DNA of 64,000 nucleotides from Gigantopelta aegis (taxonomy: Eukaryota; Mollusca; Gastropoda; Neomphalida; Peltospiridae): assembly GCF_016097555.1 (NCBI RefSeq), contig NC_054713.1, positions 43,931,071-43,995,070 of the forward strand. The letters run 5' to 3'. Shown here in pieces: positions 5,452-56,540 of this stretch. The notes below the pieces were generated by a model. That model was not told the origin of the DNA. It ran no database searches and saw only the letters and a program-made list of their open reading frames with translations. Made by a program: the position numbers and the translations under genes. The first letter of the stretch is position 1, and every line of letters starts with the position of its first letter.

Positions 5452-5629
5452 TGCTGATGTGGCCTTTTATGCCCGACCAACGGAAAGTTCGGCATGCAAA
5501 GTTACAGAACTTCATGATGTACGTGCTTCTCTGAGGATTGCGCTTTTGCGTGTCAATATAAACGTTGACTATGGCTACGTTTATGTGACTCAAACGTGTT
5601 TTATTGTGTTTTTGCATCACCATTCGCTC

Positions 5630-5763
5630 ACTTACTTGATTGTCTTTACAATGTCTTTGATTCTGAAAAAGAATCCGATAGCATTATTTTTACCAATGTT
5701 AAGTTTCTTTTTTTTTGAAGAGTATATGAATCAAAGACATCGTAAAGACAATCAAGTAAGTAT
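5630..5763. mobile_element. Short MITE-like palindrome
   Basis: Inverted arms of about 34 bp (acttacttgattgtcttta ... taaagacaatcaagtaagt) separated by about 60 bp of AT-rich loop. Non-coding; family unknown. Confidence 0.7.
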
Positions 5764-8335: not shown

Positions 8336-8447
8336 ATGACTGGGTTCAGCGACGTTGCTCGCGTTTTTCTCATCGTCGCCGTCGTAGTGGCTAGAACTGG
8401 CGAGGGGAAACAACCGCACATACTGTTTATCGTCGCAGACGACTTGG
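8336..8447 (+). CDS. Sulfatase exon 1: start and signal peptide
   Basis: Encodes residues 1-37 plus one base: MTGFSDVARVFLIVAVVVAR, a typical hydrophobic leader, then the first metal-ligand pair in VADDLG. The donor is G|GTAAGT. The same frame is open upstream without an ATG until an in-frame TGA at about 8252, so ATG 8336 is the likely start. Confidence 0.9.
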
Positions 8448-11070: not shown

Positions 11071-11169
<99 letters not shown>

Positions 11170-11409
11170 GTCTCTGTCTGTCTGTCTGTCTCTCTCTCAC
11201 ACACACTCTCAGTCTCTCGCTCTCTGTGTTTCTCACTCACTCTTTCTGTCTCTAACTTTCTATATATTTCTGTCTCTGTCTCAGTCTCTCTGTCCCTCCC
11301 TCTCCCCCCCTCTCTCTCCCCCTCTGTCTCCCCCCTCTCTTTCTCTCTATATACTTGTCTCCCTGTCTGTCTGTCTCTGTCTCGTTCTCTCTCTCTGTCT
11401 CTCACTCCC

Positions 11410-11493
<84 letters not shown>

Positions 11494-14400: not shown

Positions 14401-15201
14401 GCTCAGTGGAGGACAGCCATTATCAATACATCCTTCCGGCACCGCTCAGTGGATGACTGCCATTATCAATACATCCTTCCGGCACCGCTCAGTGGAGGAC
14501 AGCCATTATCAATACATCCTTCCGGCACCGCTCAGTGGATGACTGCCATTATCAAGCCATCCTTCCGGCACCGCTCAGTGGAGGACTGCCATTATCAATA
14601 CATCCTTCCGGCACCGCTCAGTGGAGGACTGCCATTATCAATACATCCTTTCGGCACCCCTCAGTGGAGGACTGCCATTAACAAGCCATCCTTCCGGCAC
14701 CGCTCAGTGGAGGACTGCCATTATCAATACATCCTTCCGGCACCGCTCAGTGGAGGACTGCCATTATCAATACATCCTTCCGGCACTCCTCATTGGAGGA
14801 CTGCCATTATCAAGCCATCCTTCCGGCACCGCTCAGTGGAGAACTGCCATTATCAGACTAGTTTATTACATTAAAACTAGCACAGGATAGAACGCATTGG
14901 AATAAAAATAGCATTGATGACATGTACTCATGAACCACTGTCAAAAAAAGCTAAACTGATTCCTATAATTTGCAGCATTACGTGATCGAGCCAAGTCAAG
15001 CTGTGTGTGTACCTCTCAACTTCACCTTTCTGCCCCAGGAGCTGAAGAAACTCGGATATTCCACTCACGCAATAGGGAAGTAAGTAGAAACGAAAATAAC
15101 AAATTCATTCCAACAAAATACAAAACTTAATGCAATTTTGCGCACACATACATTGGCATTGCGAACTCTGTTTAACGTGTACATATCCACCGAAGGAGTG
15201 T

Positions 15202-15240
<39 letters not shown>

Positions 15241-18200: not shown

Positions 18201-19928
18201 ATTAATTACGTACAAGTATACGTTTACCGATATGTTCGCGTCTGAGTATCTATGCATTATTAATTACGTACAAGTATACGTTTACCGATATGTTCACGTC
18301 TGTGTATCGATGTATTATTCATTACGTACAAGTATACATTTACCGATATGTTCACGTCTGTGTATCTATGTATTATTCATTACGTACAAGTATACATTTA
18401 CCGATATGTTCACGTCTGTGTATCTATGTATTATTCATTACGTACAAGTATACATTTACCGATATGTTCACGTCTGTGTATCTATGTATTATTAATTACG
18501 TACAAGTATAGTTTACCGATATGTTCACGTCTGTGTATCTATGTATTATTCATTACGTACAAGTATACATTTACCGATATGTTCACGTCTGTGTATCTAT
18601 GTATTATTAATTACGTACAAGTATACATTTACCGATATGTTCACGTCTGTGTATCTATGTATTATTCATTACGTACAAGTATACATTTACCGATATGTTC
18701 ACGTCTGTGTATCGATGTATTATTAATTACGTACAAGTATAGTTTACCGATATGTTCACGTCTGTGTATCTATGTATTATTCATTACGTACAAGTATACA
18801 TTTACCGATATGTTCACGTCTGTGTATCTATGTATTATTAATTACGTACAAGTATACATTTACCGATATGTTCACGTCTGTGTATCTATGTATTATTCAT
18901 TACGTACAAGTATACATTTACCGATATGTTCACGTCTGTGTATCGATGTATTATTCATTACGTACAAGTATACATTTACCGATATGTTCGCGTCTGTGTA
19001 TCTATGCATTATTAATTACGTACAAGTATACGTTTACCGATATGTTCGCGTCTGAGTATCTATGCATTATTAATTACGTACAAGTATACGTTTACCGATA
19101 TGTTCACGTCTGTGTATCGATGTATTATTCATTACGTACAAGTATACATTTACCGATATGTTCACGTCTGTGTATCTATGTATTATTAATTACGTACAAG
19201 TATACATTTACCGATATGTTCGCGTCTGAGTATCTATGTATTATTAATTACGTACAAGTATAGTTTACCGATATGTTCACGTCTGAGTATCTATGTATTA
19301 TTCATTACGTACAAGTATAGTTTACCGATATGTTCACGTCTGTGTATCGATGTATTATTCATTACGTACAAGTATAGTTTACCGATATGTTCACGTCTGT
19401 GTATCTATGTATTATTAATTACGTACAAGTATACATTTACCGATATGTTCACGTCTGAGTATCTATGTATTATTAATTACGTACAAGTATAGTTTACCGA
19501 TATGTTCGCGTCTGAGTATTATGTATTATTAATTACGTACAAGTATAGTTTACCGATAGCGGACAAATGGAATGTGCTCCTTGCTGTTGAACAGGTGGCA
19601 CCTGGGCTTCTGTAGCTGGGAGTGCACGCCAACGTTCCGTGGATTCGACTCGTACTTCGGCTACTACAACGGCGCAGAGGACTATTACACTCACAAGACT
19701 GGTTAGAGCACTATTGTATTTATTTATTTATTTACTCATTTATTTATTTTTGTTTGTTTGTATGTTTGTTTATTTATCTGTTTATTTTTTCTTTCTTTGT
19801 TTCTTTCTTAATTATTAATTTATTAATTTGTTTGTATCTTTCTTTATAGTTTATTTTGTTCGTTTTATGGTGTTTTTTTTGTCTGTATCCCTGTTTATTT
19901 AATTTTCTAAAATTGTTTATTTTTACTA

Positions 19929-20011
<83 letters not shown>

Positions 20012-23000
20012 AATGTATTTATTATTGTTTTTATTTTCAGGTCTATATCTAGATTATCGAGATGGCCTCCATGTGGCAGATAGCTACACGGGGCAATATT
20101 CAGCAGTGAGTATAATCCGTTACCCTATCGGAAGTACGTGTCTTGTCAGTAGTGTAGGAGTAGCACATTTGGAGTTATTAATACCAATAATACTTGCGAT
20201 TGTGACACTAACAAAGTATGAGATAGCACTGCTGTTCACTGTAAGGGGTGGTATCAGTATTCTTTACACTAAAATAAAGTTATTTTATTATGTTAATACT
20301 TAGATTAGATCGCATAAAAACAAAATTATTTAGTAATATTTATATAGTGTCATTTGATGTTACAAAAACATATTAGATCACTTTATAATGTCATTTTTGA
20401 ACATCAATACTAGTACTTAAATTAGATACCTATAGTCAAAGTATTATATATACTCAACAACGAAAGTTTAGCTAATGTTAAAAGAAATGGCATAACATTT
20501 ATAAATTAACCTATTTTTATTAATTAGTATTCACATCTGAAATGTTTACCATTTACAAGCAACATAAACTCATCAACCTTTGCCTTAACACAACAGGAGG
20601 ACCTGGTTTTCTTTTACGTTTATTCAACCATAGCAACTTTAGACGTCATAAAAGGTATTTACTAAACTTTCGTTGTTGAGTATATATTTTAAAACATATA
20701 CTAAATCATGTTTAACAAGAGTCATTTTATATTGTCAATAGTTATATTAAATAATTTAATAACAAAATTATTTAATGTTTAAAAAATATATATATTTGAT
20801 CAATATTGATACCGTGTGCTGTCAGTTACAAATAGTTAAACAAGAGCAAGCTGAACATCTACTTTGATTGCAAGACAGTGTGGAATTCAGTTTAACTGAC
20901 TTGAAAATCGATGACTTATTCGACAGACATACAGACATACAGACGGGTAATGTATTAATGTCTCACCTTATTTACATCACACTTTTATAAAAGAAAACAA
21001 ACATAACGGTGCATAAGGCATTCCTTATGGAATTATAAGAGACAGTATAGTTAAATAATATAAGTATGTACAATTATAATAATAATAAGTCTCTACGACG
21101 TTGTAAAATATAAAAACAGGTTCGATGTACAGTATTTTATCCTCTTTTTTAGTTATTTCATGACATCCCCCCCAAAACCCCCCCCCCAAAAAAAAATCCC
21201 CAAACTCCCACACCCACACCCCGCCAAAAAAAAATACAAGAAAAAAAACCCACCTGCCAAATTTGCATTGAGTTTTATATCCAAGTAAATGTTAATATTT
21301 CTGTTAGATCGTTTATACTTTACACTTTCATTTATTTCTTTTATTTCTGAACAGTACACATTTGCCAAGAGAGCGCAAGATATTATCAAAACCCACAACC
21401 AGAGTCGACCACTGTTCTTATACCTGCCCTTCCAGTCCGTGCACGCTCCTATACAGGTATTAACCCAAATGCTAACTCATTAAAGCAATATTCACACTGT
21501 GTGACTTGTAGTAACCATTTGGACAACACCCGTTGTTCGTACTTCTTGTGTTGAACAAGTTTTAGTAGATGACTAAAACCGTTTTGATTTAACGGTTCTG
21601 AGAATACAACTCGATTGAATGATGTAAATCGTTAATGCAAGTTGTTCAGTGTAAATGCCCCTTTTTGCTTAAAATAAGTTTTAAATATGCATGTGTTACG
21701 GGGTAATTAAAATGCATAAACAATGTTTTGTTTTATTATATCTGTTTTTCTGTCAGCAAAATGCTATAACAAAATTACTAAAACAATGGCAAATAGCAAA
21801 TTTGTATAACCTAACGATTGATTATCTTTTAAAATATTTATCATTTTATATTTTTCTTGTTCATTTGTTTGTTTGTTGTTATTTTTTGTGCGATTGGATC
21901 TTTTTTCTGTGCTTTTTCGTTTTCTATGTTATTTATTTCGTTCTAGTCTGTTTGTGTATTGTTTATGTTTGTGTATCTATTTTTCGCTGAAGGTCCCGAA
22001 GATCTATGAACGGTGGTACCAGAACGTGAACAACAAAGGCAGACGAGAATTTTCTGGTAAGTAATTTCGTGTTTTATTATCTTTCAGGAAATGTATCATG
22101 ATAATGCTAAATCTATAGATAAAAAATCAATAGATTTCCATGATTAAATTTAGTTACGCATGTAGAAATATATATTGTGAAAACAAAATACAATGCATAA
22201 TCTTCAGAGATGGATGGGGATGGTGTAATGCCCCGTACCCCTCTCGTTTCCAGTACCTGTTAATACATGTACATTACATTGACAATTTATCAAACCTGAA
22301 CGAAAAAACCATTATCTATTATCAAAACCGTATCTCTGCACAATTCAGTCAAATAGGAATTTAGCAAAAGCCATGTTTTTAATGGTCGGATTTAACAATG
22401 GTAGGAGTTAACAATGTTTTTTTTAAACAATATCATCAAAATATCAGTTATTATATGACATTATTTCACAAAATTAAAATAAAATTCGCAAATATTTTCA
22501 AAATTCGCAAATTTGGCGAGTTCCAGAGCCAGCTCTCATATGGCATGATGTGGGATAGTTTGAATTGTTAGTTGTAGAATACAATTACACCAAACCCTGT
22601 TACTGACTGCTATGTACTGAGGACACCTCTACTTATCAGGCATGGTGTCCGCCCTGGACGAGGCGATAGGAAACATCACGGACTCTCTCAGACTGGGTGG
22701 TATGATGGAGGACACACTTATCGTCTTCACGGCCGACGTGAGCAAAATCGGACTATTTCTAGCATCTCTTTGTCTTTACTAGCATCTCTCCAACCAGTGC
22801 ACCACAACTGGACAAATATTTGTACTAATAGTAGTCGCCTATAATGTTATAATATTTGTAATTTGGAGATGGCCTCGTAAGTTGGATAACTTGTGCTCAA
22901 TCCTTTTGTAAAATATGTTTCAAACAAACTGGACAAAGGCCGTGTTATGTGCTTTCCTGTCTGTGGGAAAGTGCATACAAAAGATCCCTTGCTACTAATG

Positions 23001-25408
23001 GAAAAATGTAGCGATTATATGTCAGAATTACCTAATGTTTGTCATCCAATAGCCGATGATTAACAAATCAGTGTGCTCTAGTGGTCTTAAACAAAACAAA
23101 CTTTTGCTAGCATCTTAGGTGTCTTTGCTTTCGAAAAAAAGAGTAAAGTTTGTTTTATTTAACGACGCCACTAGAGCACATTGATTTTTTTATCTTATCA
23201 TCGGCTATTGGACGTCAAACATATGGTCATTTTGACACTGGTTTTTTTAGAGGAATCCCGCTGTCGCCACATAGGCTACTCTTTTACGACAGACAGTAAG
23301 GGATCTTTTATTTGCGCTTTCCACAGGCCGGATAGCACAAACCATGGCCTTTGTTTAACCAGTTATAGATCACTGGTCGGTGCAAGTGGTTTACACCTAC
23401 CCATTGAGCCTTGCGGAGCACTCACTCAGGGTTTGGAGTCGGTATCTGGATTCAAAATCCCATGCCTCGACTGGGATCGGATCCCAGTACCTACCAGCCT
23501 GTAGACCGATGGCCTAACCACGACGCCACCGAGGCCGGTCCTTTGCTTTCGAAACCCCTACCAGAATGTAAATTTTCTTTTTTTAAATGTTATATTTTTT
23601 CCGGGGTTGCATGATCGGACCACCACTAAAACCATAGTTTGCCACAGTCCAGACATGGGGCGGGGCGTAGCCCAGTGACAAAGCGCAAGCTTGATGCGCG
23701 GTCGGTCTAGGATCGATCCCCGTCGTCGTCGATGGGTCCATTGGGATATTTCTCGTACCAGCCAGTGCACCACGACTGGTATATCAAAGACCGAGGTATC
23801 ATGTACTTTCCTGTCGTGGGAAAGTGCATATAAAACATCCCTTGCTACTCATGGAGAAATGTAGCGACTGTATGTCACAATTACATATAACACATCCCTT
23901 GCTACTCATGGAGAAATGTAGCGACTGTATGTCACAATTACATATAACACATCCCTTGCTACTAATGGAGAAATGTAGCGACTGTATGTCACAATTACAT
24001 ATAACACATCCCTTGCTACTCATGGAGAAATGTAGCGACTGTATGTCACAATTACATATAACACATCCCTTGCTACTCATGGAGAAATGTAGCGACTGTA
24101 TGTCACAATTACATATAAAACATCCCTTGCTACTCATGGAGAAATGTAGCGACTGTATGTCACAATTACATATAACACATCCCTTGCTACTCATGGAGAA
24201 ATGTAGCGACTGTATGTCACAATTACATATAACACATCCCTTGCTACTCATGGAGAAATGTAGCGACTGTATGTCACAATTACATATAACACATCCCTTG
24301 CTACTAATGGAGAAATGTAGCGACTGTATGTCACAATTACATATAACACATCCCTTGCTACTAATGGAGAAATGTAGCGACTGTATGTCACAATTACATA
24401 TAACACATCCCTTGCTACTAATGGAGAAATGTAGCGATTGTATGTCACAATTACATAGAACACATCCCTTGCTACTAATGGAGAAATGTAGCGACTGTAT
24501 GTCACAATTACATAGAACACATCCCTTGCTACTCATGGAGAAATGTAGCGACTGTATGTCACAATTACATATAACACATCCCTTGCTACTAATGGAGAAA
24601 TGTAGCGACTGTATGTCACAATTACATATAACACATCCCTTGCTACTAATGGAGAAATGTAGCGACTGTATGTCACAATTACATATAACACATCCCTTGC
24701 TACTAATGGAGAAATGTAGCGACTGTATGTCAGAATTACCAAATGCTCTAGTGGTGTCGTTAAACAAATCAAACTTTTAACTCTGTTGTTCATGCCTGCG
24801 CCTGTCTGGCTAGCTGTCTTTGTGTGTCTGTGCGTCTGTCTGTCTCTGCCAGTGTTTGTGTCTTTTAATTTTTGCCTGTCACACTCTATCTATCATATAT
24901 CTTGTCTGTCTGTCTGACTGTTGCACTGCATTGCATACATTGTACGTAAATCTTTATGTCTGTATGTAATAACGATATACTCGTATACTGAACACCAAAA
25001 GAAACGCCACCATTACTTGAGTTTTCTTTAATTTATTTAACATAATTAAGTTTGGATCCCGTTAGTTGTTGTGTCCTATAAAACTTTCACTTTTGAAAAC
25101 ATTTTGAGCCCATTTCAACTGTCTGTTTACCAAAAAAATTTCTTCATGAAAACAAATTGATATTTTAAAACATATGCGTTTCTTTTGTTCGTCAGTGTAG
25201 AATGGCAGTCGTTATGCGTTCACGGTTTTCACTATTACAGAATGGTGGTGAGATGGTGTTCTATGCCAACAACTGGCCCCTGCGAGGGGGGAAACACACC
25301 GTGTGGGAGGGGGGTACCAGGGGCTCGGCCTTCATACACGGGGCGGGGCTCAAGAAAACAGGCTACACTTATGATGGGTAAGACTAGAAGCGATTACAGT
25401 TTTATTTC

Positions 25409-25444
<36 letters not shown>

Positions 25445-28400
25445 TTTATTTACTTATTTACTTCTTTCTTTCTTTCTTTATTTATTTATTTATTTATCTT
25501 TTGTTACATTATTCATTTTTCTGAACATTGGTTCATAAGAATTACATATAGGTTTTTAAAATGAAACGGTAGCCTTGACATATATTTACTAAAAAGGACA
25601 TTCCTCTAAGTTAAATGTCATTTTATTATTGATTATTAACGTTATTATTGTGTTTATTCACCAGTTACATACCAAAGGCCGTGGTATGTGCTATCGTGTC
25701 TGTGGGAAAACACATATAAAAGATCCCTTGGTGTTCATGGAAAAATTGCTGTCATGGACAGAACTCTCTGGCGAAGTGTGCCCACGACAGGCGTGCTTGA
25801 ACAGTTATCTGATGGAAGAATGCCAAAAATTACCCCCACACACAAATGGAAAAATGTAACGGTTTTCTGCTATATGTTACCATTCCCAAATGTTTGACAT
25901 CCAAAAGCTGATGATTAATTAATCAATGTCCTCTAGTGGTGTCGTTAAACAAAGCAAACTTTGTTCTTTTTATTATTGTTGTTGCTATTATTGTTTATCG
26001 TTATTATTGTTGCTGTTGTTATTGTGTTTGTTGTTGTTGTTGTTATTATTATTATTACTATTATTACTACTACTATTACTATTATTATTAAGAATCATCC
26101 ACGCCGTTGACTGGATGCCGACGTTGCTGTCAGCAGCTGGGGGACATGTTGATGAAGGTAAACATCAGTAAAGCTGCAGAGTCGAATTACCACAACGTAA
26201 CAACTTTTACCGGTTCAAAATTATAATTATAACTACACTTTTAACAAACACGATTATCTAGGCTTTTACTCAATATATAGCCAAACATCTCCAGTCAAAT
26301 CGCAGCACATGGCGCCATTGTCGAAGACTTTATTGACTTGAACGAGATATTTACTGCGACAGCAGGTGTGTGTTTATTCCGTGTGTGGATTCATAATTGT
26401 AGAGGTCGTCTCAAAACCAAACTGAGAAATATCGCGCTAGACGAAGAACGTTCTGTCAAGGGTGGGAATGCTTCGTTTGATCTTGACAACACATTATATG
26501 ATTAAAAGTGAGGAAGGCTGTATTTTACTTACTTGGCCAAAAGATTCCATGCTGACAATGGAAAAAACGACTATTAGTCGAAATGACCAAATGTTTGACA
26601 TCCAATTGCCGATGATAAATAAATAGATTATCCTTTAGTGGTGTCGTTAAACAACAATTGTTTTTTAAAAACTTTATATGGAGTATGTAAAAAACCTTTT
26701 AATTTTCGTCGTCAAGCCTCAGGACCTCCAGCTCTTACGGACGTTTGGACACATTGATGAATAGTTTTGTGTACATGCCTGTGTATGAGTGTGTATGAGT
26801 GTGTGTGTGTGTATGTGTGTATGTGTATGTGTGTGTGCATGCCTGTATGTGTGTGTGTGTGTGTGTGTGCGCGTGCGAGCGAGTGTTTGCGTTTGCTTGT
26901 GTGTTTTTATGGATGTGTATATGTGTGTGTGCTATTGTAGTGTGTATTTTGTTGAGTATGTTCCTTTGTATATTTCTATGTGGACAGTGTGTGTGTCTGT
27001 ACGCCTGTCTGTCTGTCTATGTATTGTTTGGGTATTTTAACCCAACATTATTTGACCTCATAACACAGTTTATATTCATCCACAATATGTGATTTCTAGT
27101 TCTGTCTGTGTATTTTTACCCAACATTATTTGACCTTATAAGTTTATATTCATCGACAATATGTGATTTCTAGTTCTGTGTGTATTATACCCAACATTAT
27201 TTGACCTCATAACACAGTTTATATTCATCGACGATAAGTGATTTCTAGTTCTGTCTGTGTATTTTACCCAACATTATTTGACCTTATAACAGTTTATATT
27301 CATCGACAATATGTTATTTCTAGTTCTGTGTGTGTATTATACCCAACATTATTTGACCGTATAACAGTTTATATTCATCGATGATATGTGATTTCTAGTT
27401 CTGTGTGTGTATTTTAACCCAACATTATTTGACCTTATATCAGTTTATATTCATCGATGATATGTGATTTCTAGTTCTGTGTGTATTATACCCAACATTA
27501 TTTTACCTTATAACAGTTTATATTCATCGACGATATGTGATTTCTAGTTCTGTGTGTATTATACCCAACATTATTTGACCTTATAACAGTTTATATTCAT
27601 CGACGATATGTGATTTCTAGTTCTGTGTGTGTATTATACCCAACATTATTTGACCTTATATCAGTTTATATTCATCGACGATATGTTATTTCTAGTTCTG
27701 TCTGTGTATTTTACCCAACATTATTTGACCTTATAACAGTTTATATTCATCGACGATATGTGATTTCTAGTTCTGTGTGTGTATTTTACCCAACATTATT
27801 TGACCTTATAACAGTTTATATTCATCGACGATATGTGATTTCTAGTTCTGTGTGTATTATACCCAACATTATTTGACCTTATAACAGTTTATATTCATCG
27901 ACGATATGTGATTTCTAGTTCTGTGTGTGTATTATACCCAACATTATTTGACCTTATGTCAGTTTATATTCATCGACGATATGTTATTTCTAGTTCTGTC
28001 TGTGTATTTTACCCAACATTATTTGACCTTATAACAGTTTATATTCATCGACGATATGTGATTTCTAGTTCTGTGTGTGTATTATACCCAACATTATTTG
28101 ACCTTATAACAGTTTATATTCATCGACGATATATTATTTCTAGTTCTGTCTGTGTATTTTACCCAACATTATTTGACCTTATAACAGTTTATATTCATCG
28201 ACTTATAACAGTTTATATTCATCGACGATATGTGATTTCTAGTTCTGTGTGTATTATACCCAACATTATTTGACCTTATAACAGTTTATATTCATCGACG
28301 ATATGTGATTTCTAGTTCTGTGTGTGTATTTTACCCAACATTATTTGACCTTATAACAGTTTATATTCATCGACGATATGTGATTTCTAGTTCTGTCTGT

Positions 28401-31400
28401 GTATTTTACCCAACATTATTTGACCTTATAACAGTTTATATTCATCGACAATGTGTGATTTCTAGTTCTGTGTGTGTATTATACCCAACATTATTTGACC
28501 TTATAACAGTTTATATTCATCGACAATGTGTGATTTCTAGTTCTGTGTGTGTATTATACCCAACATTATTTGACCTTATAACAGTTTATATTCATCGACG
28601 ATATGTGATTTCTAGTTCCAGGAATTGACGGGGTAAGCCAGTGGGATTCCATTAGGACAGGGGGCGTCTCAAAACGAAGTGAATTCGTGTACAACCTGGA
28701 TGATTTTTTCATTCCTACTGAGGGGCATTCCGCAATAAGGTACGGCTATTCTAAACACTGTGTGTTACAAAGGCCTACTGAGGGGCATTCCGCAATAAGG
28801 TACGGCTATTCTAAACACTGTGTGTTACAAAGGCCTACTGAGGGGCATTCCGCAATAAGGTACGGCTATTCTAAACACTGTGTGTTACATTCCGCAATAA
28901 GGTACGGCTATTCTAAACACTGTGTGTTACAAAGGCCTACTGAGGGGCATTCCGCAATAAGGTACGGCTATTCTAAACACTGTGTGTTACAAAGGCCTAC
29001 TGAGGGGCATTCCGCAATAAGGTACGGCTATTCTAAACACTGTGTGTTACAAAGGCCTACTGAGGGGCATTCCGCAATAAGGTACGGCTATTCTAAACAC
29101 TGTGTGTTACAAAGGCCTACTGAGGGGCATTCCGCAATAAGGTACGGCTATTCTAAACACTGTGTGTTACAAAGGCCTACTGAGGGGCATTCCGCAATAA
29201 GGTACGGCTATTCTAAACACTGTGTGTTACAAAGGCCTACTGAGGGGCATTCCGCAATAAGGTACGGCTATTCTAAACACTGTGTGTTACAAAGGCCTAC
29301 TGAGGGGCATTCCGCAATAAGGTACGGCTATTCTAAACACTGTGTGTTACAAAGGCCTACTGAGGGGCATTCCGCAATAAGGTACGGCTATTCTAAACAC
29401 TGTGTGTTACAAAGGCCTACTGAGGGGCATTCCGCAATAAGGTACGGCTATTCTAAACACTGTGTGTTACAAAGGCCTACTGAGGGGCATTCCGCAATAA
29501 GGTACGGCTATTCTAAACACTGTGTGTTACAAAGGCCTACTGAGGGGCATTCCGCAATAAGGTACGGCTATTCTAAACACTGTGTGTTACAAAGGCCTAC
29601 TGAGGGGCATTCCGCAATAAGGTACGGCTATTCTAAACACTGTGTGTTACAAAGGCCTACTGAGGGGCATTCCGCAATAAGGTACGGCTATTCTAAACAC
29701 TGTGTGTTACAAAGGCCTACTGAGGGGCATTCCGCAATAAGGTACGGCTATTCTAAACACTGTGTGTTACAAAGGCCTACTGAGGGGCATTCCGCAATAA
29801 GGTACGGCTATTCTAAACACTGTGTGTTACAAAGGCCTACTGAGGGGCATTCCGCAATAAGGTACGGCTATTCTAAACACTGTGTGTTACAAAGGCCTAC
29901 TGAGGGGCATTCCGCAATAAGGTACGGCTATTCTAAACACTGTGTGTTACAAAGGCCTACTGAGGGGCATTCCGCAATAAGGTACGGCTATTCTAAACAC
30001 TGTGTGTTACAAAGGCCTACTGAGGGGCATTCCGCAATAAGGTACGGCTATTCTAAACACTGTGTGTTACAAAGGCCTACTGAGGGGCATTCCGCAATAA
30101 GGTACGGCTATTCTAAACACTGTGTGTTACAAAGGCCTACTGAGGGGCATTCCGCAATAAGGTACGGCTATTCTAAACACTGTGTGTTACAAAGGCCTAC
30201 TGAGGGGCATTCCGCAATAAGGTACGGCTATTCTAAACACTGTGTGTTACAAAGGCCTACTGAGGGGCATTCCGCAATAAGGTACGGCTATTCTAAACAC
30301 TGTGTGTTACAAAGGCCTACTGAGGGGCATTCCGCAATAAGGTACGGCTATTCTAAACACTGTGTGTTACAAAGGCCTACTGAGGGGCATTCCGCAATAA
30401 GGTACGGCTATTCTAAACACTGTGTGTTACAAAGGCCTACTGAGGGGCATTCCGCAATAAGGTACGGCTATTCTAAACACTGTGTGTTACAAAGGCCTAC
30501 TGAGGGGCATTCCGCAATAAGGTACGGCTATTCTAAACACTGTGTGTTACAAAGGCCTACTGAGGGGCATTCCGCAATAAGGTACGGCTATTCTAAACAC
30601 TGTGTGTTACAAAGGCCTACTGAGGGGCATTCCGCAATAAGGTACGGCTATTCTAAACACTGTGTGTTACAAAGGCCTACTGAGGGGCATTCCGCAATAA
30701 GGTACGGCTATTCTAAACACTGTGTGTTACAAAGGCCTACTGAGGGGCATTCCGCAATAAGGTACGGCTATTCTAAACACTGTGTGTTACAAAGGCCTAC
30801 TGAGGGGCATTCCGCAATAAGGTACGGCTATTCTAAACACTGTGTGTTACAAAGGCCTACTGAGGGGCATTCCGCAATAAGGTACGGCTATTCTAAACAC
30901 TGTGTGTTACAAAGGCCTACTGAGGGGCATTCCGCAATAAGGTACGGCTATTCTAAACACTGTGTGTTACAAAGGCCTACTGAGGGGCATTCCGCAATAA
31001 GGTACGGCTATTCTAAACACTGTGTGTTACAAAGGCCTACTGAGGGGCATTCCGCAATAAGGTACGGCTATTCTAAACACTGTGTGTTACAAAGGCCTAC
31101 TGAGGGGCATTCCGCAATAAGGTACGGCTATTCTAAACACTGTGTGTTACAAAGGCCTACTGAGGGGCATTCCGCAATAAGGTACGGCTATTCTAAACAC
31201 TGTGTGTTACAAAGGCCTACTGAGGGGCATTCCGCAATAAGGTACGGCTATTCTAAACACTGTGTGTTACAAAGGCCTACTGAGGGGCATTCCGCAATAA
31301 GGTACGGCTATTCTAAACACTGTGTGTTACAAAGGCCTACTGAGGGGCATTCCGCAATAAGGTACGGCTATTCTAAACACTGTGTGTTACAAAGGCCTAC

Positions 31401-33355
31401 TGAGGGGCATTCCGCAATAAGGTACGGCTATTCTAAACACTGTGTGTTACAAAGGCCTACTGAGGGGCATTCCGCAATAAGGTACGGCTATTCTAAACAC
31501 TGTGTGTTACAAAGGCCTACTGAGGGGCATTCCGCAATAAGGTACGGCTATTCTAAACACTGTGTGTTACAAAGGCCTACTGAGGGGCATTCCGCAATAA
31601 GGTACGGCTATTCTAAACACTGTGTGTTACAAAGGCCTACTGAGGGGCATTCCGCAATAAGGTACGGCTATTCTAAACACTGTGTGTTACAAAGGCCTAC
31701 TGAGGGGCATTCCGCAATAAGGTACGGCTATTCTAAACACTGTGTGTTACAAAGGCCTACTGAGGGGCATTCCGCAATAAGGTACGGCTATTCTAAACAC
31801 TGTGTGTTACAAAGGCCTACTGAGGGGCATTCCGCAATAAGGTACGGCTATTCTAAACACTGTGTGTTACAAAGGCCTACTGAGGGGCATTCCGCAATAA
31901 GGTACGGCTATTCTAAACACTGTGTGTTACAAAGGCCTACTGAGGGGCATTCCGCAATAAGGTACGGCTATTCTAAACACTGTGTGTTACAAAGGCCTAC
32001 TGAGGGGCATTCCGCAATAAGGTACGGCTATTCTAAACACTGTGTGTTACAAAGGCCTACTGAGGGGCATTCCGCAATAAGGTACGGCTATTCTAAACAC
32101 TGTGTGTTACAAAGGCCTACTGAGGGGCATTCCGCAATAAGGTACGGCTATTCTAAACACTGTGTGTTACAAAGGCCTACTGAGGGGCATTCCGCAATAA
32201 GGTACGGCTATTCTAAACACTGTGTGTTACAAAGGCCTACTGAGGGGCATTCCGCAATAAGGTACGGCTATTCTAAACACTATGTGTTACAAAGGCCTAC
32301 TGAGGGGCATTCCGCAATAAGGTACGGCTATTCTAAACACTGTGTGTTACAAAGGCCGGGAGGTAGCCCAGTGGTAAAGTGCTCGCTTGATGCGCCGTTG
32401 GTTTGGGATAGATCCCTGTCCGTGATTAGTTTGAATGAACGTACCGGGCAGGAGGAAATACAAGTGCTTGGAGACGGGAGCGGGGGCGGGGGCGATATGT
32501 AGCCCAGTGGTAAAGTGCTCGCTTGATGCGTGGTTGTTTTGGGATAAATATCTGTCCGTGATTCGTTTGAATGAACGTACCAGGCAGGAGGAAATACAAG
32601 TGCTGGGAGAGGGGGCAGCGGAACGTAGCCCATTGGTAAAGCTTTCGCTTGATGCGCGATCAGTCTGGGATCGATCCCCGTCGGTAGGCCCATTGTGTTA
32701 TTTCTCACTCCAGCCAGTGCACCACGACTGGTTTATCAAAGACCGTGGTATGTGTTATCCTGTCTGTGGGATCGTGTATATAATAGATCCCTTGCCGCTA
32801 ATCGAAAAGAGTAGCTCATGAAGTGGCGACAGCGAGTTTCCTCTATCAATATGTGGTCCGTAACCATATATCCGACGCCATATAACCGTAAATAAAATGT
32901 GTTGAGTGCGTCGTTAAATAAAACATTTCCTTCCTTCCTTCCAAGTCTTGGAGCAAATCCTCAAAGTCGGGCAAAGACAATAGAGATATTCGGGCAAAAT
33001 GAGCTGGCCTAAAACCTTTTCACCGTGTATTTCCATCACTCTACCTACAATATTAGTTGTAAACTGTGTAAAAATGCGCGGTGATTCGTTTACAACACTA
33101 TATAACTATTTGGTAGTAATACAAATATGAATAAATGTTCGTATCCAGATTCGGTCATCTTTTTTTAATTCGGGCAAGAATCAGTGTGTACACACAGCAC
33201 AACCAGACCCCCCCCCCCCCTCCCCACCCCCATCCCCCCACAACACTATATAACTATTTGGTAGTAATACAACTATGAATAAATGTTCGTATCCAGATTC
33301 GGTCATCTTTTTTTAATTCGGGCAAGAATCAGTGTGTCCACACAGCACAACCAGA

Positions 33356-33386
<31 letters not shown>

Positions 33387-35630
33387 ACGCCTACAAAAAT
33401 GCGAGCTCGTACAGGTCTGCCTATCACCATATCTGACGCCCATTCTGCTCCTGTTTCCAGAATGGGGGATTTGAAGCTGATCGAGGGGTTTCCAGGGTTG
33501 TACGACGGGTGGTACCGACCCATGAATGGAACTGTGGACACGCCTCTCATGTCGAATGTCTGGCGAGCGAACGACACGCGAGTCTGGCTCTTCAATGTTA
33601 AAGGTAAGAAACAGCGTCTTGATCCTGATGGCCACAGACCACAATTATTTCAGCTATATGTTCCTATATAGCGTTAGTGGCTATAGCACGTTTCTTAATA
33701 TCAGTAGGCCCATGGATGTTTTAAAATACACCTTTGCCTGCCTGGGGGCAACATACCCTGAAAAGGACAACCCCTGTTGTTTCTCCAAGGGTACTGGTTT
33801 AAACAAACACACCCACTAAACCTGGCCGGAGTACACCCATTTTACACAGAAAGCATTACTTTTGAATGGACCGCTATTACTACAAAAAACTCTTCAATGT
33901 CAACACGTTACACGTTTTCAAACTACAGTCTTCCCTGTCAACTTTAGTCTGATAATCGCCAATTCAAAGCTGTCTGCCATGAAATAATCACAGTCAAACA
34001 GCAGACTACTGATGCCTGGTGCGCACGATTGTAAACTGCAGAGGACAAGTCGTGGTATTGATTGATTGATTGATTGATTGATTTTTTTAATCTCATCGAC
34101 TGGTGTTAGTCTGTTGTCTCGGTTTTTTATTAAAAAAAATTCCCAGTGTTATTTTATTTCCTGAGGAAGTATACTCTTTAAATGAAATGATGGGATTTTC
34201 AGATATCTTTTAAGACAAATTTACTATATTTTATACTTTTTGGGGGGTAGGTGGGGTATGAGATGGGTGTAGCTGTTGTTTTCCCTCTAGAATTCAAGCA
34301 AAATTCATAATTTGACAAACCAACATGATGTCATTATCATATTTGTTATCGAATTTTATGAAAGTATAAACATTATAAAACAAACATTATTATTATAAAA
34401 CTATATTTGAAGTGAGGGAGGTGATTTTAGCCAGCTCTCTCCGGGTGTTTCAGAGTTCTCTCCCTTTTATATTACTTCGTGGCTGACTATAAAAAAATCT
34501 ATAATTTATCTTGCTACAAAATGTCAACAGAAAACTTTGTATTAGAATTACTAAATGTTTGACATCCAATAACAAATGCTTAATTAACCAAGGTGCTCTT
34601 GTGGAGTCAGTAAAGAAAACAAAATTTAACTTTGTCATCTTCATTTTATAATCAGGGGCTGGGAGTTATGATGATGTGGTTCACTGCCAGTGATTAATTA
34701 AGCATTTGTTATTGGATGTCAAACATTTAGTAATTCTGGTATATCCTGATTAGCCATAAAATGCTGTAACAACGGCAAAGCTATGGGAACGCCTTTTTCA
34801 TGCTATGGAATTTACTAATTCTGATCCGACTTTTTTTTAAATTCTAAACAAAAATAGTTGTTGGTTTTTTGTTATTTCCAAAGCACTTTTTCTTTTCTTC
34901 TTACGTCAAACCAAACTGAAATTATTGCCAACAAACATTTTGGTATACTATAGGACGAACTATAAATTAGCTATAGATATAAAAAACATTTTGGTATAGG
35001 ACGAACTATAAATTAGCTATAGATATAAAATAACATTTTGGTATAGAACGAACTATAAATTAGCTATAGATATAAAAAACATTTTGGTATAGGACGAACA
35101 ATAAATTAGCTATAGATATGAAAAACATTTTGGTATAGGACGAACTATAAATTAGCTATAGATATAAAATAACATTTTGGTATAGGACGAACTATAAATT
35201 AGCTATAGATATAAAAAGCATTTTGGTATAGGACGAACTATAAATTAGCTATAGATATAAAATAACATTTTGGTATAGGACAAACTATAAATTAGCTATA
35301 GATATAAAAAACATTTTGGTATAGGACGAACTATAGATATAAAATAACATTTTGGTATAGGACGAACTATAAATTAGCTATAGATATAAAAAAAAACATT
35401 TTCTTATTATGTTTCACATTCTACATGCCGAGACATTTTTATTTTTCTTCCCAACAGATGATCCAACAGAACGAGTAAATTTAGCAGACAAAATGCCGGG
35501 CGTGGTTAGTAAAATGAAGTCTCGCCTGGCGTTCTACCGGAAGAAGATGGTTCCTGCGAACTTTCCTCCCTTGGACCCGAAAGCCAACCCGAAGAGATTC
35601 GGAGGGGTGTGGACACCGGGCTGGTGTTAG
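8336..35630 (+). CDS. Arylsulfatase B-like (ARSB/I/J group), 14 exons
   Basis: Hydrolyses sulfate esters; secreted or lysosomal. The exons are 8336-8447, 10725-10836, 11606-11657, 14976-15079, 19595-19701, 20041-20105, 21355-21456, 21993-22056, 22640-22737, 25241-25377, 26093-26157, 28622-28739, 33461-33603 and 35458-35630. They are joined by GT-AG introns with phases that agree throughout, giving 483 residues. A hydrophobic signal peptide (about 1-20) is followed by the sulfatase fold: PHILFIVADD (D35, D36), the formylglycine motif CSPSR (73-77; C73 is oxidised in this family), GKWHLG (K127, H129), QSVHAP (H214), ADNGG (D272, N273) and K290. These correspond to the metal- and sulfate-binding residues known in ARSB. 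NSS, NFT, NIT, NGT and NDT are possible N-glycosylation sites. Human ARSB is somewhat longer (533 residues). ATG 8336 is the first ATG after an in-frame stop. Minisatellites crowd the introns and invade the end of exon 12. The natural substrate cannot be read from sequence. Confidence 0.93.
8566..8953 (-). mobile_element. SINE, head B plus tail 1, full length
   Basis: Head B as at 2523-2907, but the 3' end is tail 1 (minus-strand reading: catatgtttgacgtccaata, gctcgagtggcgtcgttaaa). The 12-bp duplication ccttcggaatag flanks it (8554-8565 and 8954-8965). It lies in sulfatase intron 1. Confidence 0.9.
8980..9125 (-). mobile_element. SINE tail 2 fragment
   Basis: Contains tail 2 in minus orientation (ttaagacgcactcaacacat, atggcgtcagacatatgg, gaaacccgctgtcgc), ending in the poorly kept body. 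Confidence 0.75.
9130..9290 (+). repeat. Dispersed short repeat (cacaacagcttg ... tgacctgacc type)
   Basis: The words cacaacagcttgctatgaat and ctatgacctgacc recur at 42660-42725 (plus) and about 16005-16065 (minus). They are followed by the cgaacacgcccatctcgagt block also seen at 38516-38580. Probably one old SINE-like family. Confidence 0.5.
9291..9949. other. Intron 1 stretch with G run; nothing coding
   Basis: AT-rich, with a long G run at about 9627-9650 and a short near-duplicate (cactaggagagtgacatag / cactaagagagtggcacag, 9829-9890). No gene or named element recognised. Confidence 0.4.
9950..10345. repeat. GC-rich palindromic repeat island
   Basis: An imperfect duplication of about 84 bp (10000-10155) in which each unit contains the perfect palindrome ttgcgaccggtcgcaa or a variant, plus cgacgcgtcgcacgacca. 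Many cgacc/ggtcg words in both orientations continue to about 10340. The composition is far more GC-rich than the surroundings. It lies in sulfatase intron 1, about 400 bp before exon 2. Confidence 0.75.
10449..10592. mobile_element. Small MITE
   Basis: Inverted ends ggtgaccagggacctaattc and gaattaggcccctggtcatc enclose about 100 bp of non-coding sequence. Located in sulfatase intron 1. Confidence 0.75.
10725..10836 (+). CDS. Sulfatase exon 2
   Basis: Residues 38-74, from the acceptor ttccttcacag: GWNDVGWRNPSMHTPNIDKL, a typical sulfatase N-terminal stretch, ending in VQPVCSP. Catalytic Cys73 is here and the rest of CxPSR is in exon 3. Donor CC|GTGAGT. A SINE remnant begins only about 15 bp after the donor. 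Confidence 0.92.
10850..10985 (-). mobile_element. SINE tail 1 and body remnant
   Basis: Minus-orientation tail 1 (gttttgtttaacgacaccac, tggagcacattgatt) and a worn body (tatatgcatcatcccacaga). Located just inside sulfatase intron 2. Confidence 0.7.
11072..11500. repeat. (TC)n-(TA)n low-complexity tract
   Basis: Long pure (TC)n, then (TA)n, then a mixed CT-rich tract and again (TC)n. Arg/Glu- and Ser/Leu-rich frames over it are artefacts. It lies in sulfatase intron 2, about 100 bp before exon 3. Confidence 0.95.
11606..11657 (+). CDS. Sulfatase exon 3
   Basis: A 52-base exon encoding SRTAFMTGIYPFRAGMQ. It completes the C-S-P-S-R signature that directs conversion of Cys73 to formylglycine. 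Acceptor tttttag, donor CAG|GTGAGT. Confidence 0.9.
11688..12863 (-). repeat. Unassigned ~1-kb dispersed repeat, copy 2
   Basis: Minus-orientation copy of the element at 16129-17200, with the same ends (attcccagtctggagctc on the minus strand; cccattttca at the far end). A 187-bp MITE (11984-12170) and a C run near 12759 have been inserted or expanded in it. It begins only about 30 bp after the sulfatase exon 3 donor. Confidence 0.8.
11984..12170. mobile_element. MITE nested in dispersed repeat copy 2
   Basis: Perfect 16-bp inverted ends cagtgttcgagattaa / ttaatctcgaacactg, and a 5-bp duplication gtttg on both sides (11979-11983, 12171-12175). Copy 3 at about 16797 shows the uninterrupted site. 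Inside are several ggtatccc/gggatacc words in both orientations. Confidence 0.88.
12859..12997. repeat. 31-bp tandem repeat, about 4.5 units
   Basis: The unit runs catatttgatgatgtcaggg then aatcgtaacgt, with a few substitutions per copy. It starts exactly at the end of dispersed repeat copy 2, in sulfatase intron 3. Confidence 0.85.
12998..13750. other. Intron 3 stretch, nothing recognised
   Basis: AT-rich; short frames only, without domains or splice context. Confidence 0.35.
13751..13800 (-). mobile_element. SINE tail 2 end fragment
   Basis: Only gttttatttaacgacacact and caacacattttatttacgga remain. Confidence 0.6.
13838..14130 (+). mobile_element. SINE head A and body between ~60-bp direct repeats
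   Basis: The SINE (about 13906-14066) has a clear tRNA-like head (gggcgggacgtagcccagtg, box-B-like gatcgatccccg) and body, but no usual tail. Diverged copies of one sequence flank it (tcaatgagtaacgcatctct ... gtgcattcgaaat at 13838-13900 and tcaatgagtaacgtgtctct ... gtacattcgaaat at 14076-14128). They are too long for an ordinary target-site duplication. Confidence 0.75.
14298..14855. repeat. 43-bp minisatellite, 13 units
   Basis: The unit contains ccttccggcaccgctcagtg, gaggactgccattatcaa and a variable tac/gcc end, with one to four differences per copy. It lies in sulfatase intron 3, about 120 bp before exon 4. The frames open across it (141 and 89 codons) result from the repeat and do not join the gene. 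Confidence 0.93.
14976..15079 (+). CDS. Sulfatase exon 4
   Basis: Encodes HYVIEPSQAVCVPLNFTFLP then QELKKLGYSTHAIGK. It holds an NFT glycosylation sequon and the start of GKWHLG, with K127 split across the intron. Donor AA|GTAAGT. Confidence 0.92.
15195..15285. repeat. (GT)n microsatellite
   Basis: Nearly pure GT, then mixed gtgcgt words. Located in intron 4. Confidence 0.9.
15584..15868 (-). mobile_element. SINE, head A plus tail 2
   Basis: On the minus strand: head (gggcgggacgtagcccagtg, cggtgtgggatcgatccccg), body (gcaccacgactggtatatca, ctaccctgtctgtgggatgg) and tail 2 (catatgtctgacgccatata, gagtgcgtcgttaaat). This pairs head A with tail 2, unlike the copy at 2523-2907. Confidence 0.88.
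16129..17200 (+). repeat. Unassigned ~1-kb dispersed repeat, copy 3 (fullest)
   Basis: The most complete copy. It runs from attcccagtctggagctc to cccattttcaa, then a 3' part with two complementary words (atcccgagtcaggccaccga ... cggaggtcggactcgggat) that can fold. No RT, transposase or long open frame is seen, and the termini are not clearly TG..CA or inverted. It may be non-autonomous. Short frames conserved between copies (e.g. around 16266-16532) do not resemble a known protein. Confidence 0.75.
17270..17425. other. C/A-rich low-complexity stretch
   Basis: Two ggccat(a/t)t... words are followed by an A/C-only tract. Not coding. Confidence 0.6.
17501..19580. repeat. 58-bp minisatellite, ~32 units, inside MITE-like ends
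   Basis: The unit (array core 17712-19556) reads gatatgttcgcgtctgagta, tctatgtattattaattacg, tacaagtatacgtttacc. Variants (cac for cgc, tgtg for tgag, cat for taat, a missing 2 bp) are arranged in blocks. Outer sequences are roughly inverted (gagtagattccatttatgag at 17501; ggacaaatggaatgtgctcc near 19560), suggesting expansion inside a non-autonomous DNA element. It ends about 40 bp before sulfatase exon 5. The Tyr/Val/Cys-rich frames over it are artefacts. Confidence 0.88.
19595..19701 (+). CDS. Sulfatase exon 5
   Basis: Encodes WHLGFCSWECTPTFRGFDSY then FGYYNGAEDYYTHKT. H129 of the active site and the GFDSYFGY core are here. Acceptor ttgctgttgaacag, donor G|GTTAGA (weaker than the other donors). 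Confidence 0.92.
19711..20015. repeat. T-rich tract and long (AT)n
   Basis: Attt/tttg-type simple repeats, then pure (AT)n from about 19931 to 20007, ending about 30 bp before exon 6. Confidence 0.9.
20041..20105 (+). CDS. Sulfatase exon 6
   Basis: A 65-base exon encoding LYLDYRDGLHVADSYTGQYSA, the segment corresponding to the ARSB region before the KRA helix. Acceptor ttattttcag, donor GCA|GTGAGT. Confidence 0.88.
20451..20682. mobile_element. MITE with perfect 21-bp inverted ends
   Basis: Ends tactcaacaacgaaagttta(g) and its exact complement, each flanked by TA, as in Tc1/mariner-type non-autonomous elements. The core is about 190 bp and non-coding. Located in sulfatase intron 6. Confidence 0.88.
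20683..21354. other. Intron 6 remainder
   Basis: AT-rich, with a C/A homopolymer cluster at 21167-21255. No element or gene recognised. Confidence 0.4.
21355..21456 (+). CDS. Sulfatase exon 7
   Basis: Encodes YTFAKRAQDIIKTHNQSRPL then FLYLPFQSVHAPIQ. H214 in QSVHAP is an active-site residue of the family. Acceptor tttctgaacag, donor CAG|GTATTA. Confidence 0.93.
21993..22056 (+). CDS. Sulfatase exon 8
   Basis: A 64-base exon encoding VPKIYERWYQNVNNKGRREFS, matching the ARSB stretch around VPEEY. Acceptor ttcgctgaag, donor G|GTAAGT. Confidence 0.9.
22640..22737 (+). CDS. Sulfatase exon 9
   Basis: Encodes GMVSALDEAIGNITDSLRLG then GMMEDTLIVFTAD. It ends on the metal ligand D272; N273 opens exon 10. 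NIT is a glycosylation sequon. Donor GAC|GTGAGC. Confidence 0.93.
22785..23110 (+). mobile_element. SINE body plus tail 1, interrupted
   Basis: The body starts (accagtgcaccacaactgga) at 22790. About 120 bp of other sequence intervenes, then it resumes at 22928 (actggacaaaggccgtgtta) and runs to tail 1 (gatgattaacaaatcagtgt). The head is missing. Confidence 0.7.
23137..23540 (-). mobile_element. SINE, head B plus tail 1, full length
   Basis: Same module pairing as 8566-8953. Exact 14-bp target duplication ctttgctttcgaaa at 23123-23136 and 23541-23554. Located in sulfatase intron 9. Confidence 0.93.
23655..24775 (+). mobile_element. SINE (head A, tail 1) with internally amplified body
   Basis: The head (cggggcgtagcccagtgac) and body are normal up to catataaaacatccc. 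Then a 57-bp piece of the SINE itself is repeated, and the element closes with a shortened tail 1 (aattaccaaatgctctagtg, gtgtcgttaaac). Confidence 0.9.
23827..24738. repeat. 57-bp minisatellite made of SINE body, 16 units
   Basis: Each unit reads catcccttgctactcatgga, gaaatgtagcgactgtatgt, cacaattacatataaca. Units differ by one or two bases (cat/aat; ataa/agaa). Because 57 is a multiple of three, frames of 318 and 322 codons stay open on both strands. These are not genes. Located in sulfatase intron 9. Confidence 0.95.
24984..25199. mobile_element. MITE with Tc1-like ends
   Basis: Left end tactgaacaccaaaagaaac, right end the near complement gtttcttttgttcgtcagtg. The caaaagaaacgc core of these ends also appears at the terminus of the Tc1 element near 62830. 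Non-coding, in sulfatase intron 9. Confidence 0.75.
25241..25377 (+). CDS. Sulfatase exon 10
   Basis: Encodes NGGEMVFYANNWPLRGGKHT then VWEGGTRGSAFIHGAGLKKT. N273 and K290 belong to the active site; NWPLRGGK..WEGG is a hallmark of the ARSB group. Donor GG|GTAAGA. Confidence 0.94.
25400..25500. repeat. (CTTA)n / (TTTA)n microsatellite
   Basis: Pure tetranucleotide tracts directly after the exon 10 donor. Confidence 0.9.
25660..25965 (+). mobile_element. SINE body plus tail 1 with an insert
   Basis: Body (ggccgtggtatgtgctatcg, catataaaagatcccttg) and tail 1 (aaatgtttgacatccaaaag, gtgtcgttaaacaaag) are separated by about 110 bp of extra sequence (25752-25860). Confidence 0.72.
25970..26092. 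repeat. (ATT/GTT/ACT)n tract forming the exon 11 acceptor region
   Basis: Trinucleotide repeats run without break to attattattaag, the 3' splice site of exon 11. There is no ordinary polypyrimidine tract between the repeat and the exon. Confidence 0.85.
26093..26157 (+). CDS. Sulfatase exon 11
   Basis: A 65-base exon encoding IIHAVDWMPTLLSAAGGHVDE, matching LIHISDWLPTL of ARSB. Acceptor attattaag|A, donor G|GTAAAC. Confidence 0.9.
26158..26785. other. Intron 11, first part
   Basis: Mostly unassigned. A SINE tail 1 remnant (aaatgtttgacatccaattg, gtggtgtcgttaaacaac) lies at about 26588-26656. Confidence 0.5.
26786..27031. repeat. (GT)n-rich tract
   Basis: GT-rich with gtat and gtct interruptions, leading directly into the 74-bp array. 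Confidence 0.85.
27032..28617. repeat. ~74-bp minisatellite ending at the exon 12 acceptor, ~21 units
   Basis: Unit (73-75 bp): tgatttctagttctgtgtgt, attatacccaacattatttg, accttataacagtttatatt, catcgacgatatg. An extra partial unit lies at about 28203. Each unit contains tgatttctag. In the last unit this becomes tgatttctagttccag, the AG that starts exon 12, so the splice acceptor is the end of the array. Frames of about 90-120 codons over it are repeat artefacts. Confidence 0.93.
28622..28739 (+). CDS. Sulfatase exon 12 (shortest form)
   Basis: Encodes residues 340-379: IDGVSQWDSIRTGGVSKRSE then FVYNLDDFFIPTEGHSAI and the first two bases of R379. The first donor is AAG|GTACGG at 28740. Joining it to exon 13 (A|ATG GGG) gives AIRMGDLKLIEGFPG, which fits AIRHGNWKLLTGYPG of ARSB, so this junction is well supported. 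The last 26 bases of the exon and the donor are copied 60 more times downstream in frame, so longer forms of this exon are possible. Confidence 0.9.
28714..32355 (+). repeat. 60-bp minisatellite containing a coding end and splice donor, 61 units
   Basis: The unit starts cctactgaggggcattccgc aataag, then GTACGG (5' splice site) and 34 bp of former intron ending tgttacaaagg. There are 60 full units and one of 42 bp (third copy). Units are otherwise identical except one base near 32282. Unit length and the 18-bp loss are multiples of three and there is no stop, so a frame of 1,271 codons runs through (28687-32502). It repeats TEGHSAIR then YGYSKHCVLQRP. The array ends where a SINE head begins. 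Such sameness suggests very recent expansion or homogenisation; the copy number may be wrong in an assembly. Confidence 0.95.
32356..32935 (+). mobile_element. SINE with three tandem heads (head A, tail 2)
   Basis: Three tRNA-like heads follow one another (gtagcccagtggtaaagtgc at about 32362, again at 32497, and gtagcccattggtaaagc at 32625). The first two share a 3' part (gtttgaatgaacgtacc, ggaggaaatacaagtgct). Only the third continues into the body and tail 2 (atccgacgccatataaccg, gagtgcgtcgttaaataaaa), then a (ttcc)n end. It sits directly after the 60-bp array. Confidence 0.88.
33092..33387. repeat. ~148-bp tandem duplication ending in C runs
   Basis: The stretch acaacactatataactattt ... 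cacagcacaaccaga is present twice with about three base differences, each copy followed by a C run (the second about 30 C). It lies in sulfatase intron 12, about 75 bp before exon 13. Confidence 0.88.
33461..33603 (+). CDS. Sulfatase exon 13
   Basis: Encodes MGDLKLIEGFPGLYDGWYRP then MNGTVDTPLMSNVWRAND and TRVWLFNVK. KLIEGFPG and WLFNVKDDP correspond to KLLTGYPG and WLFDIERDP of ARSB. NGT and NDT are sequons. Acceptor ctgtttccag, donor G|GTAAGA. Confidence 0.93.
33604..34934. other. Intron 13, first part
   Basis: Mostly unassigned AT-rich sequence. It includes a (ATTG)n tract near 34056 and two inverted fragments of SINE tail 1 (34545-34640 and 34690-34742; catccaataacaaatgctta and its complement) that could pair as a hairpin. 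Confidence 0.5.
34935..35396. repeat. 43-46-bp minisatellite, ~10 units
   Basis: Unit acattttggtataggacgaa, ctataaattagctatagata, taaaa(t)a. One unit is shortened near 35330. It ends about 60 bp before sulfatase exon 14. Confidence 0.92.
35458..35630 (+). CDS. Sulfatase exon 14: C-terminus and stop
   Basis: Encodes DDPTERVNLADKMPGVVSKM then KSRLAFYRKKMVPANFPPLD and PKANPKRFGGVWTPGWC, then TAG. This is the usual ARSB-type ending (P..DPK...GVWGPW in human). Acceptor ttcttcccaacag. Confidence 0.95.

Positions 35631-42929: not shown

Positions 42930-56540
<13,611 letters not shown>

Follow-up and report, generated by a model that had tools for sequence, protein, structure and literature searches.

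A 60-bp near-perfect tandem array spans the border between exon 12 and intron 12 of an arylsulfatase B (ARSB)-like sulfatase gene in the snail Gigantopelta aegis, and repeats the splice donor of that exon 61 times in a single phase. The gene lies in a window of 64,000 nucleotides, the whole stretch of DNA that was analysed (contig NC_054713.1, positions 43,931,071 to 43,995,070 of the forward strand, assembly GCF_016097555.1). Coordinates given without a locus handle are those of the window and of the plus strand unless stated otherwise; papers cited by PMC number are cited from excerpts. We think it probable that the array is a tolerated minisatellite from which splicing sees mostly the first donor; one-unit inclusion might reach a few per cent, and skipping of exon 13 may depend on array length. 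The array is most likely passive, that is, tolerated and not selected.

The donor array and its host gene

Each unit, CCTACTGAGGGGCATTCCGCAATAAG followed by GTACGGCTATTCTAAACACTGTGTGTTACAAAGG, consists of 26 nt from the end of exon 12 followed by 34 intronic nt; the two parts meet at the donor AAG/GTACGG (the slash marks the splice site). The exact string AATAAG/GTACGG occurs 61 times, with the G of the donor GT at 28740 in the first and at 32322 in the last; 59 of the 60 donor spacings are 60 bp and one is 42 bp. When units are cut from 28717 on, 57 of the 61 are identical. The four deviants are the pieces left on either side of a loss of 18 bp near 28887/28888 (two pieces, with a 2-bp CA at the junction), one unit with a G>A change at 32282, and the last unit, which differs where the array joins other sequence. 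The array is far beyond chance; Tandem Repeats Finder (TRF) returned it as two rows (28714-28889 and 28888-32357), the main one with a score of 6933. The exon 12 frame is open from 28609, through units that are all stop-free, to a stop at 32502.

A preliminary description of this locus had read the unit anatomy, the 61 donors in one phase, the unit short by 18 bp and the stop-free frame from the letters alone, and the motif count and spacings agree with it. Its start of the array also stands, but its end, at 32355, falls two bases short of the TRF boundary. The (n-1) x 20 residues that it expected from use of donor n are correct for n = 2 or 3; from n = 4 the insert is 6 residues shorter, and use of donor 61 would add 1194 residues.

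Pipelines built on Canu, wtdbg2, Racon and Pilon can make repeat units more alike and get their number wrong. While the array itself is real, its 61 near-identical units might partly reflect consensus and polishing, with true alleles that vary in length and sequence. The identity of 57 of the 61 units, against matches of 90-98% in the other minisatellites of the gene, points this way, as does the published assembly, for which PacBio subreads went through Canu, wtdbg2, Racon and Pilon with Illumina data (PMC7895826). Set against this, the reads kept were >=8 kb, which is long enough for 3.6 kb (PMC7895826); the shortened unit and the single-base variant survive; the array is inside one contig; and similar arrays with degenerate units recur in the genome. 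We judge such an assembly effect unlikely. On count and identity it can hold together with a tolerated minisatellite and, since both may partly be consensus effects, we draw no age from unit identity.

With the array as a DNA query against the genome (1.149 Gb; the search skips very common words), all 16 of the matches listed fell at this locus, and a dispersed satellite family was rejected. Repeats with GGTAGCCCAGTGGTAAAGTGCTCGCTTGATGCGC, which we take to resemble a tRNA-derived short interspersed nuclear element, abut the array end (32358-32820).

The host gene is intact. Our model, made by tblastn with a human ARSB sequence and inspection of splice sites, has 14 exons and encodes 483 residues. 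A protein search returned a 100% identical NCBI/UniRef entry, the arylsulfatase B-like protein of Gigantopelta aegis (P0003), with 485 residues, and a Haliotis homologue at 67%. The frame is full-length with a normal end, the C-x-P-S-R active site is present as CSPSR, and Pfam Sulfatase (PF00884) matches P0003 with an E-value of 3.5e-55. The two residues (VP) by which model and entry differ come from the start of exon 12, which in the NCBI protein begins at 28616, after TTTCTAG and six bases upstream of the model, giving an exon of 124 nt. The exon 13 acceptor is CAG/AATGGGG (33460/33461), so AG/A restores an R, which is followed by M. In P0003, exon 12 is joined to exon 13 at the first donor, TEGHSAIR/MGDLKL, with no inserted units, which makes the first donor the canonical one by annotation and not by reads. 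This is exactly the normal ARSB-like junction that the preliminary description had assigned to the first donor; the insertion point that it placed at R379/M380 is right for the gene model and becomes R381/M382 in the NCBI protein. None of nine aligned relatives carries an insert at the exon 12/13 junction. A TTG/TTA microsatellite at 25961-26092 runs directly into the exon 11 acceptor, TTATTATTAAG.

The acceptor of exon 12, which lies in or next to a second array, of 75 bp, was overlooked in the preliminary description, as was the recurrence of junction arrays in the genome. In the upstream array, TTTCTAGTTC occurs 21 times. By the NCBI protein, the last of these serves as the acceptor; splicing to any of the 20 before it would introduce at least two stops. 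Both borders of exon 12 thus touch arrays, and the donor side is open in frame while the acceptor side is not.

Arrays at exon borders elsewhere in the genome

Outside the window, arrays run across about 6 of 146 sampled exon edges (3 acceptors and 3 donors; 95% interval 1.5-8.7%) and come within 9 nt of four others. The spanned edges comprise 4 of 68 in sulfatase paralogues, which were located by homology alone, and 2 of the 78 from loci of myosins (30) and sugar transporters (9), where the edges are the ends of domain matches; some of these loci are pseudogene-like or intronless, and not all 146 edges are true splice sites. Before counting, four exon edges of the C5 paralogue were corrected by eye and one tblastn match that is not an exon (C15 region, 5614-5729) was dropped.

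In the C5 paralogue, the exon 13 acceptor and exon start occur nine times, mostly 70 bp apart (L011 1761-2423, L020 7372-8000), and the exon 7 acceptor lies in an array of 25 units with a 30-bp period; the acceptor motif survives in about half of them (12 copies of TTYAGAC). In front of exon 11 of the same gene stand several degenerate copies of its border and start, which were excluded from the six. Exon 6 of the C14 paralogue (L027 2539-3403) is spanned at its acceptor by a 35-bp array of 18 units and at its donor by a 37-bp array of 3 units. Reading by eye puts that acceptor at ATTCAG/GATCAATGGGGT, 12 nt ahead of the point where the match begins; the computed overhang was 0, and the array was counted as spanning on this reading. 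In a myosin gene, presumably of muscle type, eight 80-bp units that match at 98% each hold the exon end with its donor (L034 1661-2300), and another similar exon end follows the donor array at about 2310-2360. Degenerate composite repeats of the exon end and donor CTCGTACAG/GTAAATACT are present in a second myosin gene (L031 1757-2060); the TRF row is weak (67% match) and was accepted since copies of the exon end are visible. With the sulfatase locus included, three of the seven junction-array periods are multiples of 3 (60, 30 and a 24-bp composite) and four are not (70, 35, 37 and 80), and frame is therefore not kept in general.

By TRF, about 11% of the sampled genome sequence is tandem arrays. 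The fraction covered by arrays is 0.12 at 200-1500 bp from exons, 0.045 at the splice sites themselves and 0.006 at 30-60 nt inside exons (no significance test), with a distinct drop on the acceptor side (to 0.049, from 0.14-0.18). This pattern looks like thinning by selection rather than recruitment. Arrays lying flush with exons had suggested that they nucleate at splice junctions; this was rejected, as coverage rises away from exons. Since coverage is lower near exons, arrays do not favour junctions, and the sulfatase locus is a tail case.

The position of exon 12 between 21 TTTCTAG acceptor copies and 61 donors, together with the count of about 6 in 146, would also suit a broader idea: that splice-site satellites are frequent enough for allele length to act as a common, fast-mutating splicing dial, setting a low level of in-frame 20-residue inclusion here and exon skipping that depends on length across many genes. 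We regard this as unlikely.

Choice among the donors

In human ABCA7, a 25-bp variable number tandem repeat (VNTR) of 12-427 units begins with the exon 18 donor. The excerpts report that the first donor is canonical, that the first and second donors are used, that one unit is retained at 2+/-1%, and that longer arrays raise skipping of the next exon (exon 19) 3.2- to 4.1-fold (PMC5954066). By analogy, we expect first-donor splicing in the snail with a few per cent of one-unit molecules, and possibly more exon 13 skipping in long alleles. On this reading, a minisatellite has arisen at the border of exon 12 and intron 12 in a sulfatase gene that is ordinary in other respects, within a genome that has many such arrays in its introns. 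The first donor would win because it alone defines a short exon of 118-124 nt. Donor 2 would be used at a low level (about 2% in the ABCA7 parallel), adding 20 residues in frame with no frameshift, and donors deeper in the array would be practically silent. By repeating TEGHSAIR, the insert would in effect lengthen the loop before the following strand; since a weak alignment makes human ARSB about 23 residues longer there, the protein might accommodate one or two units. The one-unit product would be in frame and hence, unlike that of ABCA7, not subject to decay. Exon 13 (143 nt) may be skipped more often in long alleles, in parallel with the effect of array length on the following exon of ABCA7; as this skipping would cause a frameshift, length would more likely affect dosage than protein size. 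At the exon 12/13 junction of the mRNA, the unit end is predicted to be preceded by TTTTTTCATT if donor 1 is used and by GTTACAAAGG if any later donor is used. The digestive gland, which the preliminary description had named as the tissue to sample, has no basis in the sequence; Gigantopelta aegis is a vent-dwelling peltospirid whose symbionts live in the oesophageal gland (PMC7895826).

Several observations weigh against preferential use of the first donor in a merely tolerated array. The 61 donors share a common core, so donor sequence gives no preference for the first, and their score of 7.96 is middling within the gene (range 4.0-12.5 on a donor matrix). Where donors are duplicated, the intron-proximal site is known to be chosen in some cases, and this would speak for late donors. 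P0003 is an annotated protein that may rest on RNA or on prediction. All units can be read through without a stop, which a ladder of isoforms would require. The drop in array coverage on the donor side of exons is shallow (0.042 against 0.065-0.107). Finally, the ABCA7 one-unit isoform is described as independent of array length (PMC5954066).

The preliminary description had proposed isoform diversity at this locus, and use of many of the 61 donors would indeed give sulfatases longer by 20-residue steps. The unit length is divisible by 3 and no unit has a stop in the exon frame, and the insertion point lies beside a loop that is longer in human ARSB: the human chain has about 23 additional residues near the junction (chain positions 361 to 385; weak alignment, E 3.4e-4), and a low-confidence structure model (mean pLDDT 53.1), too weak for more than this, puts a loop at 367-377 before a strand at 378-382. 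Against such a ladder, P0003 is the single annotated product among the matches listed. It is the sole member of its 90% cluster, and the best 120 of 7980 protein matches (8000 scored) included no longer Gigantopelta variant. With the 1295-codon repeat frame as a protein query, none of 153 candidates reached E<=0.001. For ABCA7, the excerpts report use of donors 1 and 2 only (PMC5954066). The open frame itself is weak evidence of function, because a 34-nt piece drawn at random from the introns of the sulfatase gene gives an open 60-bp unit with a probability of 0.60; letting chance also decide whether the unit length is divisible by 3 lowers this to 0.20. Given the latter value and the other junction arrays that do not keep frame, selection for an open frame is not needed. 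We therefore consider the proposed diversity unsupported and a ladder very unlikely.

Each unit might also clean itself out, units retained through a late donor being removed in a second round of splicing so that every path leads to the same mRNA. AAG/GT in each unit is followed 33 nt on by TTACAAAG/G behind the branch-like TTCTAAAC; AG/GT is present in all units; and both the 33-nt stretch from GT to CAAAG and the 27-nt remainder are multiples of 3. At the TAG acceptor that follows from the NCBI protein, the pyrimidine fraction is only 0.53, which does not surpass that of the CTGAG site in the unit. However, the pyrimidine tracts of the acceptor-like sites in the unit are weak (0.41-0.53, against 0.59-0.82 at the 13 model acceptors). 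Known animal introns exceed 33 nt, which is too short for one intron, and two units would thus be needed. Stepwise removal, as read from these motifs, appears extremely unlikely. RNA structure that hides donors was rejected, as no unusual fold was seen for two units (z 0.61).

Table 1. Features of the sulfatase locus in window coordinates
Feature	Position	Strand	Details and basis
ARSB-like sulfatase gene	8336..35630	+	14 exons, no premature stop; tblastn, splice-site inspection
75-bp array	27025..28618	+	21 copies of TTTCTAGTTC; ends just before CAG at 28619-28621; TRF
Exon 12	28622..28739	+	118 nt with acceptor CAG at 28619-28621
60-bp minisatellite	28714..32357	+	61 donors, 18 bp lost at one point; TRF, motif count
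First (annotated) donor	28740..28745	+	GTACGG; motif count, NCBI protein junction
Third unit	28834..28887	+	18 bp missing after it; donor spacing
61st, last donor	32322..32327	+	GTACGG; motif count
Exon 13	33461..33603	+	143 nt; acceptor is partner for every donor; splice-site inspection

Elsewhere in the window are two polysaccharide lyase family 14 frames (39681-40487 and 55599-56540; PF21294, E 4.4e-72 and 8.7e-78), which we take to be alginate-lyase-like, and, on the minus strand, pieces that by eye resemble Tc1/mariner-type transposases (4698-5466 and 46073-46898).

Comparison with known splice-site repeats

Tandem duplication of AGGT is a known family of intron gain, and AAG/GT, with the AG/GT that this family has, is present in 61 of 61 units of the snail array. 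In Antarctic fish, a 9-nt coding element across an intron/exon border of trypsinogen was amplified to give the antifreeze glycoprotein gene. There the repeat became protein; the snail repeat is seen in no annotated protein, its peptide being absent from P0003 and its frame matching none of the 153 candidates. Minisatellites across exon borders in paralogues from human segmental duplications alter introns, as in the snail, but these are short, on average 30 bp x 4, and are proposed as makers of new introns (PMC2812944, in excerpt).

Each snail unit holds the donor of its own exon, with 61 of 61 cores identical, as in splice-donor VNTRs of the CBS and ABCA7 type. The preliminary description knew of no described splice-donor satellite on this scale, a claim that fails against these two human arrays. 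We found no report of a splice-site array in a mollusc in literature searched largely outside subscription journals. The snail array is an unusually large, frame-keeping case of a known type of splice-donor array, not a new mechanism.

The CBS VNTR, c.1444_1467+7(16_21), has a 31-bp unit in 16-21 copies (PMC2630376; Lievers 2001, cited via PMC2630376 and PMC5188458). The name implies a unit made of the last 24 nt of an exon plus 7 nt of intron, the same composition as in the snail; the repeat differs in that 31 bp is not a multiple of 3, in having about a third as many units, and in substitutions between units. More units go with lower CBS activity, and the excerpt calls the repeat non-coding (PMC5188458). 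CBS 844ins68 is alike in that an exon border (intron 7/exon 8) is duplicated and one copy is favoured, giving normal mRNA (PMC2630376). It is a single duplication at an acceptor (the source passage writes donor) and is closer to the arrays of the C5 paralogue.

The VNTR in intron 18 of ABCA7, an Alzheimer's disease risk locus, resembles the snail array in starting from the donor of its exon and repeating that donor in its units, and its copy number is comparable to or above 61. It differs in that the ABCA7 array starts at the GT without exon sequence, whereas the snail unit holds 26 exon nt, and in that length effects have been measured in people. A unit of 25 bp shifts the frame and makes one-unit inclusion subject to nonsense-mediated decay; one of 60 bp keeps it. 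The snail gene is thus a natural experiment in which the spliceosome chooses among 61 identical donors and every choice is in frame, so that no product is hidden by this decay, a confounder in ABCA7; the in-frame one-unit product is the property that makes the locus useful for experiment. Exon-border arrays may be common in Gigantopelta, given 6 of 146 edges in a small sample. If so, this snail would be a useful animal in which to study effects of minisatellites on splicing such as those in human disease genes.

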